DNA of 43,662 bases from an uncultured SAR86 cluster bacterium. GTDB lineage: Bacteria > Pseudomonadota > Gammaproteobacteria > Magnimaribacterales > D2472. This document shows positions 29,385 to 37,550 of this stretch, piece after piece. The translations under genes and the position numbers were made by a program. The notes under the pieces are model-generated. The model worked only from the letters and a program-made list of their open reading frames with translations, did no database searches and was not told the origin of the DNA. Where the stretch lies: contig CACOEZ010000003.1 in assembly GCA_902626385.1 (NCBI GenBank), positions 117,148-160,809 on the forward strand, in the 5' to 3' direction. Within the stretch, counting starts at the first letter, position 1, and each line of letters starts with the position of its first letter.

Positions 29385-29404
29385 TACTGTATAAATATAC
29401 AGTA
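29385..29404 (+). promoter_or_regulatory. LexA (SOS) box of recA
   Basis: TACTGTATAAATATACAGTA at 29385-29404 is a near-perfect palindrome and matches the gammaproteobacterial LexA consensus CTGT-N8-ACAG with the favoured flanking TA. It overlaps a TATACT -10 candidate at 29383-29388 and ends directly at the recA Shine-Dalgarno sequence AAGGAG (29404-29409). Repression by LexA and DNA-damage induction of recA follow by analogy. LexA itself is not in the window. Confidence 0.9.
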
Positions 29405-29415
29405 AGGAGTAAATT

Positions 29416-30423
29416 ATGCCTAAGTCAAAAGATACAACTGGAAAGTCTCTTAAAGACACAATAAATGATATAGATAATCATTTCGGTAAAGGAACTGTTA
29501 TGAGAATGGGAGATAGAGAAAATCTTGATATCCCTTCAATATCAACAGGTTCACTCGGTTTAGATATTGCACTCGGAATTGGCGGAATTCCAAAAGGTAG
29601 AGTAACTGAAATATATGGACCGGAATCTTCAGGTAAAACAACACTGACTCTTCAGATTATTGCTCAATGCCAAAAAGAAGGTGGCACATGCGCATTTATT
29701 GATGCTGAGCATGCGTTGGATCCTCAATATGCAGAAAAGCTTGGCGTAAATGTTGATGAGCTTCTTTTGTCTCAGCCTGATACGGGTGAGCAGGCTTTAG
29801 AAGTTGCGGATATGCTAGTTAAGTCTAAGAGTGTTGACCTAGTTATTATTGACTCAGTTGCTGCTTTGGTTCCGCGGGCTGAGATTGAGGGTGAGATGGG
29901 TGACCATCATGTAGGTCTTCAGGCTAGATTAATGTCTCAAGCTCTCAGAAAGATAACTGGCAACATTCAAAGATCAGGTGCAACAGTAGTTTTTATTAAT
30001 CAGATTAGAATGAAAATCGGTGTAATGTTTGGAAGCCCAGAGACTACAACAGGTGGAAATGCTCTTAAGTTTTATTCATCTGTAAGATTGGATATCAGAA
30101 GAATAGGTTCTGTGAAAGAGGGCGATGAGGTTACTGGTAATGAAACTAGAGTAAAGGTTGTTAAAAACAAAGTCTCTCCACCGTTTAAACAAGCTGAATT
30201 CCAAATTATGTACGGACTTGGTATTAATCAAGAAGGCGAGATTTTAGATTTTGGAAATAAACTTGGTTTAGTTGAGAAATCAGGTGCTTTTTATAAGCTT
30301 GATGGAGAAAGCATTGGACAGGGCAAAACAAAAGCCAGTCAATTTCTGAAAGAAAATGCAAAAGTTAAAAATAAACTTATTAAAGAAATAAGGTCTTCTT
30401 ATATAACTTCAAAATCCAAATAG
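29416..30423 (+). CDS. recA: Recombinase A
   Basis: RecA forms the ATP-dependent filament that performs strand exchange and triggers LexA self-cleavage. The 335-residue protein has Walker A GPESSGKT (68-75), the [11 protein letters not shown] segment, Walker [11 protein letters not shown], the loop 1 [21 protein letters not shown] region (shown in part) and [14 protein letters not shown]. Length is close to E. coli (353) with a shorter acidic tail. A strong Shine-Dalgarno sequence sits 6 bases before the ATG. It is divergent from fdxA with a 107-base regulatory gap. cinA and recX, frequent neighbours, are absent here. Confidence 0.98.
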
Positions 30424-33244: not shown

Positions 33245-33535
33245 ATGCCGATTTATGACTATAAATGTTCCGATTGTGAACATCAAATTGAAGTTATTCA
33301 AAAGATTAATGATGAGCCTATGATTGTTTGTCCAAAATGCTCAAAAAGAAGTCTTAAAAAACTAGTTTCAGCACCATCATTTAGACTCAAAGGAGGTGGT
33401 TGGTACGAAACTGACTTTAAAACTGGTAAAAAAAAGAATATATCCACAAAAGATGAGCGCAAAAACGATAAATCTAAAGAAAGTTCTAAATCTGACTCCA
33501 AGAAAGGCTCCAAACAAGATAAAATTAGTAACTAA
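33245..33535 (+). CDS. FmdB-family zinc-ribbon protein
   Basis: A 96-residue small protein with the FmdB putative regulatory domain: MPIYDYKCSDC, then CPKC, forming a four-cysteine zinc ribbon (Cys8, Cys11, Cys29, Cys32), and the typical SAPSFRLKGGGWY segment. The C-terminal third is a low-complexity Lys/Ser/Asp tail. Function is not established for the family. Its place directly upstream of aspS is conserved in many gammaproteobacteria, so co-transcription with aspS is likely. TATAAT at 33218-33223 may be its -10. Confidence 0.9.
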   Translation: MPIYDYKCSDCEHQIEVIQKINDEPMIVCPKCSKRSLKKLVSAPSFRLKGGGWYETDFKTGKKKNISTKDERKNDKSKESSKSDSKKGSKQDKISN

Positions 33536-33548
33536 CAAGGGAATAATC

Positions 33549-35312
33549 ATGAAATCTCATTACTGTGGTGAAATAACTTCTTCAGATATAAAAAAAGAAG
33601 TAAAAATTTGTGGCTGGATTCACAGAAGAAGAGATCATGGCGGAGTTATTTTCTTAGACGTTAGAGATATTAAAGGTATATGCCAAGCAGTTGTTAATCC
33701 AGACAATAAAGAAGCTTTTAAAATTGCTGAGTCAATAAGAAATGAATATGTTATTCAAGTTTCAGGTAGCGTAAGAAAAAGACTTGAAGGAACTATAAAT
33801 AAAAATATGCATACAGGTGAAATTGAGATAGAGGTTTCTGATATCGCCATTCTCAGCAAAGCAAATACCCCTGTATTTCCAATTGATGAATATCAGGATG
33901 TTAATGAGGATGTAAGACTAAAAAATAGGGTTTTAGATTTAAGAAGGCCTGAAATGAATGAGAGAATAATCACTAGATCAAAAATAACTTCATTGATAAG
34001 AAATTATCTTGAAAAAAGTGGATTTCACGAAATAGAAACACCTATATTGACAAGAGCGACTCCAGAAGGAGCCAGAGATTACATTCTCCCAAGTAGAGTT
34101 CAGCCCGGAAGTTTTTATGCATTGCCGCAATCACCCCAGCTATTTAAGCAACTTTTGATGATCGGGGGTCTTGATAAGTATTACCAAATTGCAAGATGCT
34201 TTAGAGATGAGGATTTAAGAGCAGATAGACAGCCAGAGTTTACTCAAATTGATATAGAGGCATCTTTTATAACTCAGGAAGAAATTATGTCTGTGAGTGA
34301 AAAAATGATTAAAAAAATAATCAATAAATTTTGTGGCGACAAGTTAGAAAAATTTGAGGTAATGGATTGGAATAATGCTATGAATGAATATGGCTGTGAC
34401 AAGCCTGATTTAAGGATTCCTCTAAAATTAGTAGATATTGCTGATTTAGTAAAAGATGAAGAGTTTAAAGTATTTTCTGAGCCAGCTAAAAAGACACATT
34501 CAAGGGTAGTTGCATTAAAAGTGCCAGGTGGAAATTCATTAACAAGGGGTCAAATTGATGACTATACCAAATTTGTTTCTAAGCTTGGTGCAAAAGGATT
34601 AGCCTATATTAAAATTAATGATGCTGAAGATATAGAAAATGGCATTCAGTCACCAATACTAAAATTCCTCAAGAAAGAAACGGTTTCAAACATATTGAAT
34701 AATTTAGATGTTAAATCAGATGACTTAATCTTCTTTGGTGCCGGTTCCGAGACAATAGTAAATTTATCAATGAGCAGTTTAATTAAAAAACTCGGTTTGG
34801 ACTTAAATTTATACAATTCTAAATGGGCTCCGTGCTGGATAATTAATTTTCCAATGTTTGAAACTAATAGTGATGGAGAACTAACACCACTTCATCATCC
34901 GTTTACTTTGCCACAATGTAATTCAGATGAATTGAAAAATAATCCTGATACATCATTAGCATACGCATATGATGTAGTCCTAAATGGTTATGAGATCGGA
35001 GGTGGTTCACTTAGGATTTTTGATAAATCTATGCAAGAAACTGTTTTTGAGACCCTCAAGATCTCAAAAGAAGAAGCAACTAATAAATTTGGGTTCTTAT
35101 TAAAGGCTCTGTCTTCGGGATGTCCTCCTCATGGTGGGATAGCTTTTGGCTTAGATAGAATTGTCATGCTTGTAACTGATACAACAAATATCCGAGATGT
35201 AATTGCTTTTCCAAAGACTCAAAGCGCAGCATGCCTTTTAACAGAAGCACCTAGTAAAGTTGATGAAAAACAACTTGAAGAGCTTAAAATAATCAGCACG
35301 CATAAGGAAGAG
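33549..35312 (+). CDS. aspS: Aspartyl-tRNA synthetase
   Basis: AspS attaches aspartate to tRNA-Asp. The ATG at 33549 (MKSHYCGEI) gives about 588 residues, matching E. coli (590), and is preceded by an AAGGGA ribosome binding site. The frame is open further upstream, through fmdB, but that extension is a shadow. Seen in order: OB-fold HRRRDHGGVIFLDVRD, motif 1 region, EGARDYILPSR, QSPQLFKQLLM, the motif 2 RCFRDEDLRADRQPEFTQID (about 217-236), the GAD insertion of bacterial AspRS and motif 3 GIAFGLDRIVML. The stop codon occupies the three bases after 35312. Confidence 0.98.
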
Positions 35313-35318
35313 TAGAAT

Positions 35319-36056
35319 ATGGCCGGTCATTCTAAATGGGCTAATATCAAACATAGAAAGGCAAGACAGGATGCTTCGAGAGGTAAAGTATGGACTAAGG
35401 TTATCCGAGAAATTACAGTTGCCGCTAAAGAGGGACCAGATCCTAATGATAATCCTCGATTAAGACTAGCATTAGAGAAGGCTAATTCTGCAAATATGCC
35501 AAAAGATACAATTAAAAGGGCTATTGAGAAAGGCTCTGGAACAGGAGAGACAGGAGCCTTAGAGGAAATTATTTTTGAGGGGTACGGGCCTGGAGGTGTA
35601 GCAATTCTCGTCGAGACAATGTCTGATAATAGAAATAGAACTGTTTCAGATGTAAGACATGCATTTTCAAAATTTGGTGGCAATCTTGGTACAGATGGTT
35701 CTGTATCTTATCTTTTCAAGAAAATGGGAATTATTCACTTAGATAAAAGTTTTTCTGAAGAGGAGTTAATGGAATTAGTAATTGAGATTGGTGCAGAAGA
35801 CTTATCTGAGGAAGAGGATTTTTTTGAAATTACAACGGATGTTAATCGATTTAACGATATTATTAATGCTTTAAAACAGAAAAATATTATTTATTCTAAT
35901 GCTGAATTAACACTAAGAGCAGAAACTCTTGTTAAATTAGACCAAGATATGTCAGAAAAGGTATTAAATATCATGGAATTTATGGATGATTTAGATGATG
36001 TGCAAGAGGTTCACACTAACGCAGAGTTTCCAGAAAATTTTGAGGTTAAGGCATAA
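35319..36056 (+). CDS. yebC: YebC/PmpR-family protein (transcription/translation factor)
   Basis: A conserved cytoplasmic protein: AGHSKWANIKHRKA (residues 2-15), DNPRLRLALEKA, NMPKDTIKRAIEKGSG, YEGYGPGG-type motif (FEGYGPGGVA) and NRTVSDVRHAFSKFGGNLG. Length 245 is standard. Family members have been described as transcription regulators and, more recently, as factors relieving ribosome stalling. It usually precedes ruvC in gammaproteobacteria. Here it is followed two bases later by an unrelated nuclease. Confidence 0.96.
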   Translation: MAGHSKWANIKHRKARQDASRGKVWTKVIREITVAAKEGPDPNDNPRLRLALEKANSANMPKDTIKRAIEKGSGTGETGALEEIIFEGYGPGGVAILVETMSDNRNRTVSDVRHAFSKFGGNLGTDGSVSYLFKKMGIIHLDKSFSEEELMELVIEIGAEDLSEEEDFFEITTDVNRFNDIINALKQKNIIYSNAELTLRAETLVKLDQDMSEKVLNIMEFMDDLDDVQEVHTNAEFPENFEVKA

Positions 36057-36058
36057 TT

Positions 36059-36484
36059 TTGTCTATTAATTCAAGAAATAAAGGCGCTGCATTTGAAAGG
36101 CAAATCGCTAATGCCCTTATCGAAGATTTGAACCTTAAGAACCCAGTTAAAAGGATTTTAGAGCAGACTAGAACAAAAGAGCTTCCAGACTTGATGTTAG
36201 GAACATGGTGTATTGAATGCAAAGCCTATGGAACTGGAGCAGAACCCAGACCAGACTGGTGGGATCAAGTAATTGCTTCATCGTCTGGCATAAATATGAA
36301 ACCCGCCTTGGTTTATAAATTTAATAATAGACCAATTAAAGTCAGGATTCTTGCAAGCTCGTTAAACAAAAACATTAAAAATAATCTAGTTACTTTGGAT
36401 TTATTATGGCCTGACTTTATTCAAATTATTCTTGAATTATTTCAAGAGGACATAGAGATGCATGAAAAAAATTATCAAGTGTAA
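36059..36484 (+). CDS. PD-(D/E)XK nuclease, Hjc-like (putative Holliday-junction resolvase)
   Basis: The 141-residue protein begins with GAAFERQIANAL (residues 9-20, acidic Glu13), then QTRTKELPD (36-44, Asp44) and IECKAYG (52-58, Glu53-x-Lys55). This Glu...PD...ExK layout is the catalytic pattern of Hjc-type archaeal and phage resolvases in the PD-(D/E)XK superfamily. The start is TTG at 36059, two bases after yebC. The slot between yebC and ybgC normally carries ruvC-ruvA-ruvB; none of these is present. It overlaps ybgC by 23 bases. It could also be a VRR-NUC- or restriction-type nuclease. Fold confidence is good; substrate is inferred from context. Confidence 0.78.
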   Translation: MSINSRNKGAAFERQIANALIEDLNLKNPVKRILEQTRTKELPDLMLGTWCIECKAYGTGAEPRPDWWDQVIASSSGINMKPALVYKFNNRPIKVRILASSLNKNIKNNLVTLDLLWPDFIQIILELFQEDIEMHEKNYQV

Positions 36485-36872
36485 GCCATTAAATTTCAAA
36501 ATATATGTTGAAGATACTGACTTTCAAGGTGTCGTTTATCATGCAAATTATATAAAATTTTTTGAAAGGGCAAGATCAGAGTTTTTGTATGCGAATAATA
36601 TTTCACAAAATAACCTTAAAAGTAACAACTTAGCCTTTGTTATCAAGAGTATAAATATTAAATACATTTCGGCAGCAGAACTTGGTGATGAAATCACTGT
36701 TAAATCTAGTGTTGAAAAAAAATCTGATGCCAGAATGATATTTAGTCAGAAAGTAGTAAACATAAATAATAATATGGAGCATGCTATCGGAGAGGTCGAA
36801 GTTTGTTTTATAAATTTATTAACAAAAAAACCACAAAAATTCCCAGATGATTTATTATTAATTTTTAACTAG
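36462..36872 (+). CDS. ybgC: Tol-Pal-associated acyl-CoA thioesterase YbgC
   Basis: A hot-dog-fold thioesterase acting on acyl-CoA or acyl-ACP at the inner membrane; first gene of tol-pal operons. The 4-hydroxybenzoyl-CoA thioesterase-type active site is clear in YVEDTDFQGVVYHANYIKFF (about residues 15-34), with the catalytic Asp and the HANY segment, followed by ERARSEFL. 136 residues, as in E. coli (134). The ATG lies 23 bases inside the preceding nuclease gene. tolQ follows after 9 bases. Confidence 0.95.
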   Translation: MKKIIKCKPLNFKIYVEDTDFQGVVYHANYIKFFERARSEFLYANNISQNNLKSNNLAFVIKSINIKYISAAELGDEITVKSSVEKKSDARMIFSQKVVNINNNMEHAIGEVEVCFINLLTKKPQKFPDDLLLIFN

Positions 36873-36881
36873 GTCAATGTT

Positions 36882-37550
36882 ATGGATGATATATCGGTAT
36901 TAAATTTATTTTTAGAAGCGGGCATAGTGGTAAAAATTGTAATGCTTTTGCTGTTTATTGCATCTATTTTGTCATGGATCGTCATAGTTGAGAGATATAG
37001 GTTCTTTGAAAAGATCAAATCTCAAAACAGCGCTTTCCTAAAGAGATTTTGGTCAGGCGATGATCTTGATATTCTAATGAAAGATATATCTGAAGATGAA
37101 AGAAACTATGGTGCAATAAATTTATTTAAAAGTTCTTTTGAGGAATTCAAAATTCTTAGTAAGCAAGAGAGCATGAGTGAATCTGATCTTGAGAGTATTA
37201 ATAGATCAATGAGGGTATCAATAGCATCAGATGAAGAAGAGATGAATAAACATTTATCATTTTTAGCTAATGTAGGATCTGTAAGTCCTTATGTTGGTTT
37301 GCTAGGAACGGTCTGGGGAATAATGACCTCATTCCAAGGGTTGTCTGATGCGACTCAAGCTACAATTAATGCAGTTGCCCCAGGTATATCAGAGGCTTTA
37401 GTTGCGACCGGAATGGGACTATTTGCGGCAATACCGGCTGTAGTAGCCTTTAATAAATTTATTTCAGAGTCTGAATCATTTAGCCAGAGTACTTTAATAT
37501 TTGCTGAGGAGTTGGCAAGCATATTTTATAAACAAGCTGTAAAAAAATGA
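36882..37550 (+). CDS. tolQ: Tol-Pal inner-membrane motor subunit TolQ
   Basis: TolQ forms, with TolR, the proton-driven stator that energises TolA. The 222-residue protein has a first membrane helix (about residues 14-32), a large cytoplasmic loop, and the MotA/TolQ/ExbB signature VGLLGTVWGIMTSFQGL followed by APGISEALVATGMGLFAAIPA, which carries the last two helices. It overlaps tolR by four bases. Confidence 0.96.
   Translation: MDDISVLNLFLEAGIVVKIVMLLLFIASILSWIVIVERYRFFEKIKSQNSAFLKRFWSGDDLDILMKDISEDERNYGAINLFKSSFEEFKILSKQESMSESDLESINRSMRVSIASDEEEMNKHLSFLANVGSVSPYVGLLGTVWGIMTSFQGLSDATQATINAVAPGISEALVATGMGLFAAIPAVVAFNKFISESESFSQSTLIFAEELASIFYKQAVKK

Follow-up and report, generated by a model that had tools for sequence, protein, structure and literature searches.

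A putative phage-type Holliday-junction resolvase in the ruvCAB place of SAR86 bacteria

The nuclease gene and its surroundings

The window, that is, the whole stretch of DNA analysed here, comprises 43,662 nucleotides of an uncultured SAR86 cluster bacterium. The assembly it belongs to amounts to 1.09 Mb on 20 contigs, with a completeness given as 72%. A conserved run of genes leads from aspS to the tol genes and includes a small nuclease gene, and recA lies farther upstream:

29387..29402, + strand: perfect LexA-type box directly upstream of recA, from a CTGT-N8-ACAG pattern scan of the window
29416..30423, + strand: recA (NCBIfam TIGR02012, above cut-off)
33549..35315, + strand: aspS (NCBIfam NF001750 and TIGR00459, above cut-off), start of the conserved gene run
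35319..36056, + strand: yebC (Pfam PF01709 and PF20772), ending 2 bases before the nuclease gene
36059..36484, + strand: PD-(D/E)XK nuclease of 141 aa, beginning with TTG; putative Holliday-junction resolvase at the place of ruvCAB
36095..36097, + strand: Glu13 codon, in helix 5-24 of the structure model; invariant
36188..36190, + strand: Asp44 codon, immediately before model strand 45-47; invariant
36215..36223, + strand: Glu53-Cys54-Lys55 codons (E-x-K), in model strand 50-57; Glu53 and Lys55 invariant
36462..36872, + strand: ybgC (4HBT thioesterase; Pfam PF13279 and PF03061), overlapping the nuclease gene by 23 bases
36882..37550, + strand: tolQ (NCBIfam TIGR02796, above cut-off), downstream of the replaced slot

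The first-pass annotation had described a 141-residue reading frame between yebC and ybgC, 2 bases behind the one and 23 bases into the other. This is confirmed by the list of open reading frames and by the Pfam matches on both flanks, and counting on the translation places Glu13, Asp44, Glu53 and Lys55 exactly where they had been claimed. The start of aspS is an ATG picked by reading, the mechanical open reading frame beginning at 33396. Farther downstream tolB and pal both score above their NCBIfam cut-offs, and tolR, with 124.8 bits, falls slightly below its cut-off of 127.3. At 11 other SAR86 loci the nearest nuclease start lies between 11 bases inside yebC and 10 bases past its end (one of the 11 has additional candidate starts upstream), a spacing that suits a closely coupled operon. 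Of the further claim that the cell keeps a LexA-controlled recA, the window shows recA, recognized by its family, and the perfect box in front of it, control by LexA being inferred from the box alone. This box is the only zero-mismatch occurrence of the pattern among eight matches with at most one mismatch, a number equal to the chance expectation.

The nuclease is present in 177 of 199 genomes of the SAR86 order and in all 22 of its 22 genera, including 38 of the 40 genomes with a completeness of at least 90%. The order aspS-yebC-nuclease-ybgC-tolQ-tolR is kept at 50 of 50 nuclease loci, and yebC lies directly upstream of the nuclease at 80 of 80 named loci, the two sets having genomes in common. 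In the fourth SAR86 family (L070-L074, L078) aspS-yebC-nuclease recurs at six of six loci and tolQ comes next at five; no ybgC was detected between nuclease and tolQ at these six. A scan of named genomes returned 158 relatives. Among the best 80 of these 158, the closest is 98% identical, 68 are named SAR86 cluster bacterium, and the remaining 12 go under broader titles, for instance Gammaproteobacteria bacterium and, in one case, Rhodospirillaceae bacterium. One named SAR86 copy (L159) stops at about residue 125.

Twenty-two genomes are without the nuclease, 20 of them listed as such and two (G115 and G121) deduced by comparing match lists. We rejected them as counter-examples, since the yebC region is missing, cut or foreign in every one: 18 have no YebC match at all, the contig stops inside yebC in G046 and G193 and 38 bases past the YebC match in G054, and the sole YebC of G166, 44% identical to that of the window, sits on an alphaproteobacteria-like contig. 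We have thus seen no SAR86 genome in which the slot is visible and the nuclease absent. The gene is under strong purifying selection: its median dN/dS is 0.051 (161 pairs from 30 sequences), compared with 0.070 for yebC (150 pairs) and 0.050 for tolR (63 pairs). Together with the constant gene order, this goes beyond what chance would produce.

What occupies this position in other Gammaproteobacteria? In a sample of the class with a completeness of at least 85%, RuvC was detected in 85 of 94 genomes, or 85 of 92 when the two SAR86 members are left out. Outside the order, yebC is close by at 25 of 30 RuvC loci viewed with short flanks. At 17 loci viewed with wider flanks, yebC directly precedes ruvC at 16 and ruvA directly follows it at 16, with ybgC downstream at 10 and tolQ at 13. 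The usual arrangement had been given as yebC, ruvC, ruvA and ruvB followed by ybgC and tol; the succession yebC-ruvC-ruvA with ybgC or tolQ beyond was indeed seen, and the position of ruvB lies outside the search because it was not among the genes looked for. Given this outgroup order, the nuclease holds the place of ruvC-ruvA(-ruvB) in SAR86.

Searches for RuvABC, RusA and RecG

The first-pass annotation had stated that all three ruv genes are missing. Intact ruvCAB did not turn up in any of the order's genomes that were sampled: the RuvC profile matched none of 199 genomes and RuvB_C none of 151, and RuvA_N matched two of 199 at an E-value of 0.001, one of them (G118) over the cut-off and the other (G020) below it with 19.8 bits. 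RusA, a further enzyme that it had proposed to search for, was rejected as a substitute for RuvC because its profile matched none of 151 genomes. Among control genomes, which included E. coli, matches were obtained for RuvC in 8 of 14, RuvA_N in 10 of 14, RuvB_C in 10 of 14 and RusA in 3 of 14. The window's own, 72%-complete genome has no match to RuvC, RuvA_N or RuvB_C. Gaps in the assemblies can be dismissed as an explanation for the absent ruv genes, since RuvC, RuvA_N and RuvB_C, and likewise RusA, are also unmatched in all order genomes with a completeness of at least 90% (40 per sample). Within the sampling, the replacement of ruvABC characterizes the whole SAR86 order and not just one cell.

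Two kinds of match required closer attention. The RuvB_N profile matched 198 of 199 order genomes, over the cut-off in 176, with up to five matches per genome in open frames of about 270-600 aa; the window's genome has two weak ones (best E 6.7e-6). We read these matches as other AAA+ ATPases, because none exceeds 36.3 bits, all 14 of 14 controls are positive, archaea included, and RuvB_C is unmatched in all 151 genomes searched. An intact RuvB behind them was rejected on the same grounds, the individual open frames not having been identified. The RuvA of G118 is complete and Pfam-confirmed (L076:2547-3146; G118:C98) and adjoins an open reading frame that reads as an efflux-pump gene. As its contig spans only 3,251 bases and RuvC is unmatched in all sampled genomes of the order, we read it as probably a stray contig and not a true SAR86 gene, which is not proven.

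The search for RecG, likewise suggested at the outset, gave a divided answer. Its RecG_wedge domain was found in 97 of 121 order genomes, 96 of them over the cut-off. The window's genome gave no match, nor did any of the nine further members of its genus that were listed. Also unmatched among the listed genomes are one of g2, three of g4, five of g3 and one of g15, and four more of the 121 without a match fall outside those listed. In g3, G070 (C20:77151-77336) and G101 (C15:2687-2875) have only short RecG matches with stop codons. A second recombination enzyme has apparently been lost later in these groups. Since neither RuvAB nor RecG was found in it, the window's genus seems to lack both classical motors, other helicases being outside the search.

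Sequence family, predicted fold and phage relatives

The nuclease matches the Pfam family PDDEXK_15 (PF24608) with 41.6 bits against a cut-off of 27. The same profile scores 33.6 for a divergent SAR86 copy, 33.8 for a viral one and 42.8 for a copy within a phage block of G026. The nuclease also matches phrog_244 (E 1.2e-13, residues 1-95), which is labelled RusA-like Holliday junction resolvase; the 'RusA-like' part of this label is unsupported, because no RusA profile (PF05866) matches among the Pfam families at E up to 1. A Pfam profile exists for the archaeal Hjc family. Neither this nor a RecU or RuvC profile matched at E up to 1, PF24608 being the only family listed. NCBIfam offers no family for the protein, and sequence searches of the PDB returned no relative, only one chance match with an E-value of 0.91. 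PADLOC contains no matching family at E up to 1, on which basis we rejected an identity as a defence nuclease. Judged by its sequence, the protein is a member of PDDEXK_15/phrog_244 and not of the archaeal Hjc profile family.

A structure model was built with 41 sequences and reached a pLDDT of 87.6 and a pTM of 0.84. It begins with a helix (5-24, with E13), a short helix and the strands 45-47 and 50-57 (with E53 and K55), and continues with helix 65-74, strands 81-88, 94-98 and 112-116 and two end helices, an order of elements that we take to suit a PD-(D/E)XK nuclease. The first 13 Foldseek rows all belong to archaeal resolvases, with a best E-value of 6.6e-4 and TM-scores of roughly 0.4-0.6. 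In VIA, the Hjc structure 1gef gives a Z-score of 10.3 at 2.7 Å over 102 residues with 22% identity, and rows 1-8 are all Hjc or Hje (Z 8.9-10.3, identity 15-22%). Lower rows hold SPARDA nucleases (Z 8.0) and RecU entries (Z 5.8-6.3), two of the latter titled penicillin-binding protein-related factor A. The predicted fold is thus closest to that of archaeal Hjc resolvases.

Nine residues (E13, R32, Q36, D44, E53, K55, Y57, W67 and Q70) never vary, either among 99 distinct SAR86 proteins (143 loci) or among 72 distinct proteins from viruses or phage blocks (89 loci). The viral invariance of E13, R32 and Q36 is partly a matter of selection, because most viral loci were fetched with peptide patterns that contain them; D44, E53 and K55 lie outside these patterns. 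The catalytic E, D and E-x-K follow one another along the chain in the order known from Hjc. The likeness to archaeal and phage Hjc put forward in the first-pass annotation therefore stands for the predicted fold and for the phage family, and fails for the archaeal Hjc sequence profile. Profile search and structure prediction, which it had named as checks, pointed to resolvase families of phages and archaea and not to another class of nuclease.

At least 568 stretches of viral contigs encode a relative, and the best 80 of these at least 568 are up to 55% identical. Five named phage records carry relatives with 27-37% identity to the nuclease. Examples of phages with putative PDDEXK_15/phrog_244 resolvases are the Roseobacter phages CRP-811 and CRP-406. 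Full-length marine viral relatives at L164:5983-6423, L174:5995-6411 and L170:5995-6414 are 50-55% identical and stand among late genes. G026 has a second nuclease copy, 38% identical (L075:8017-8436; G026:C4), in a stretch whose genes, by reading, are those of phage replication, and near relatives of this copy occur at seven viral loci. Selected neighbours were scanned at eight viral loci. At five of them (L203, L222, L231, L217 and L200) the relative is near genes for exonuclease, primase, polymerase or replication initiation, and at L174 it adjoins an endolysin and a virion protein. L234 has a single weak endolysin match, and the neighbour at L164 is a 2OG-Fe(II) oxygenase; the late genes near L170 and L164 were assigned by reading.

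How the SAR86 and viral copies relate was examined in a midpoint-rooted tree of 111 rows (35 from SAR86, 72 from viruses or phage blocks and four from other bacteria) and 138 columns. All 35 SAR86 rows form one group together with six viral rows (support 99/98). This group joins a viral pair (98/84), which according to a warning of the analysis may be misplaced, and lies inside further viral rows (94/79). Within the group L164 is placed with a support of 98/74, the other five viral rows with only 81/28. L164 and L174, both inside the SAR86 group, may by this placement be SAR86 phages. In a sample of the phylum, four of 396 other genomes have a relative (35.7-49 bits). As inferred from these sequences, the tree fits a single transfer from a phage to the ancestor of SAR86, with transfers from host to phage afterwards; the direction is not shown, because the root is a midpoint root. 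The possible phage origin raised at the outset is in this sense supported by viral relatives, viral neighbours and the tree, with direction remaining an inference.

A second resolvase-like gene came to light in the same slot. Contig C26 of G166, 12 kb long and with 28% GC, is binned in a SAR86 genome, and its genes read as alphaproteobacterial (EF-P, GAPDH, ZapA and others, named by reading); the one open reading frame of this contig tested against NCBIfam had no match. Between yebC and a tolQ-like frame lies a 97-aa open reading frame (L289:4578-4871; G166:C26; also L308) that matches phrog_2002, Holliday junction resolvase, with an E-value of 4.5e-10, and has no Pfam family at cut-off and no NCBIfam family. 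Two phage records carry relatives of about 45% identity. From its sequence and position it would appear to be a separate replacement in this slot, possibly in SAR11. One row of a published table names a core SAR11 cluster 'putative Holliday junction resolvase' without specifying the gene.

Proposed role and competing readings

Several known systems can be set beside the SAR86 nuclease. Archaeal Hjc and Hje (1gef, 1ob8, 2wcw) provide the closest solved folds and share a similar length and the E / D / E-x-K order; in contrast, there is no profile match, identity stays at 15-22%, and the SAR86 gene is a bacterial chromosomal one in a yebC-tol operon. With the phage PDDEXK_15/phrog_244 proteins it shares a profile score over the cut-off and the catalytic residues of the viral relatives, but the SAR86 copy is chromosomal in nearly every sampled genome and stands in the place of ruvCAB. 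RuvC has the same position after yebC and the same proposed function, yet the SAR86 protein has no RuvC profile match, and its predicted fold is of PD-(D/E)XK type whereas that of RuvC is RNase H-like. A precedent within bacteria is RecU, which the accessible parts of two surveys describe as a resolvase unrelated to RuvC that replaced it in Firmicutes and Mollicutes with RuvAB kept, and that is rarely encoded near ruv genes (PMC1193525, PMC3403352). RecU entries are among the structural matches too, at lower Z-scores, which makes a likeness of fold at most tentative. SAR86 differs from the RecU groups in that RuvAB was not found, the enzyme is in the ruv slot and no RecU profile matches. The same portions of these surveys mention prophage-encoded proteins as suggested stand-ins where resolvases are missing (PMC1193525, PMC3403352).

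We consider it likely that an ancestor of SAR86 took a phage Hjc-like resolvase into its yebC operon and that RuvABC was lost, with cleavage and direction as inferred parts of this proposal. Since RecA is present and RuvABC was not found, an enzyme that cuts junctions is to be expected. The nuclease would be a small, probably dimeric, metal-dependent PD-(D/E)XK endonuclease acting in the manner of archaeal Hjc, with its catalytic metals presumably held by E13, D44, E53 and K55. It may bind four-way and possibly other branched DNA arising from RecA recombination and fork repair, and would cut two opposing strands of the junction. With RuvAB not found, the customary branch-migration motor would be missing; in most SAR86 families RecG may take this part, but it was not found in the window's genus. 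The donor would have been a marine phage, and the clade would have lost ruvC, ruvA and ruvB, with the nuclease now occupying their place. Dimerization, metal binding, junction cleavage, the role as main resolvase, the phage-to-host direction and the order of gain and loss are inferred only. That it cuts junctions is the best reading of fold, residues, family labels and position, with no biochemistry behind it. Also weighing against the proposal are the missing Hjc and RecU profile matches, the fruitless PDB sequence searches, the modest Foldseek TM-scores, the RuvB_N matches, the limits of the tree and the shortened copy L159. Of resolvase families, the genome searches covered RuvC and RusA only, leaving RecU, YqgF, endonuclease VII and T7 endonuclease I types outside their scope. 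Within these bounds the non-orthologous replacement of the resolvase suggested by the first-pass annotation is supported by the failure to find intact ruvCAB in the sampled genomes, the slot and the phage and archaeal resolvase families, its cleavage activity being an inference.

Could the protein be a less specialized enzyme? As a general nuclease for branched DNA with relaxed specificity it would meet junctions as one substrate among others, and recombination intermediates would be avoided or dissolved by a helicase and a topoisomerase. Phage resolvases are typically more promiscuous than bacterial ones, as stated in the available part of PMC3864405. Close viral relatives stand beside late genes (at L174 and, by reading, at L170 and L164), where debranching would help packaging, and RuvAB was not found. 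The nuclease is nevertheless in the ruvCAB slot at every examined locus, and the solved structures closest to its predicted fold are resolvases of the Hjc type, so that we hold a mere debranching role to be possible but rather unlikely. Far less credible is a function unrelated to recombination, linked to YebC or Tol or to anti-phage defence, with ruvCAB lost separately and the slot a coincidence. Neither YebC nor Tol, its neighbours in the operon, acts in recombination, and a phage-like family could act in conflicts; against this, PADLOC found no match, the gene is present in every genus under strong purifying selection, its predicted fold is Hjc-like and its position is that of ruvC-ruvA in the outgroups.

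A different question concerns direction, since the nuclease might originally have been a resolvase of SAR86 or other bacteria that spread from hosts to phages. Six viral rows branch within the SAR86 group, close to individual families of the order, and transfer from host to phage may therefore also have happened. As an account of the origin we find this doubtful: with the midpoint root, 66 other rows from viruses or phage blocks surround the SAR86 group, and the phylum sample yields relatives in only four other genomes. Acquisition from a phage, with loss of RuvABC, remains our preferred reading.

How unusual would such a situation be? In the sections available to us, PMC1193525 reports resolvases to be nearly as ubiquitous as RecA, neither RuvC nor RecU being present in 10 of 117 genomes, and PMC3403352 gives the bacteria without RuvA and RuvB as fewer than 2%, mostly parasites. 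SAR86, described in the accessible part of PMC11582366 as very abundant marine bacteria, is free-living. According to the same part of that paper, the closed genome of the first cultured SAR86 lacks 28 of 280 marker genes, several of them for recombination and repair, and 27 of these 28 are absent from 732 environmental genomes as well. The loss of ruv genes in SAR86 may thus already be implicit in print, by way of its supplementary list of missing genes. We found no published replacement of ruvABC in SAR86 in the open-licence literature; as far as this literature tells, the family of the nuclease, its exact slot, the additional loss of RuvAB and its presence throughout a free-living order are new.

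SAR86 thus presents a group with no RuvABC found, recA kept in the window and a viral-type candidate in the place of ruv. More tentatively, and with somewhat less than even confidence, we suggest that a dominant ocean order resolves junctions with a single domesticated phage-type nuclease, without RuvAB and in the window's genus apparently without RecG, and that a different phage-type resolvase independently took the ruvCAB slot in low-GC alphaproteobacteria. If true, this would point to a recurring path along which streamlined cells reduce a machine of three genes to a single viral one. What resolves junctions without RuvABC becomes a question about a single gene, and a cultured SAR86 with a closed genome exists (PMC11582366, from the part at hand). 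If the proposal holds, a viral enzyme would have taken over a core chromosomal step across a whole order, in cells that manage recombination without known branch-migration motors.
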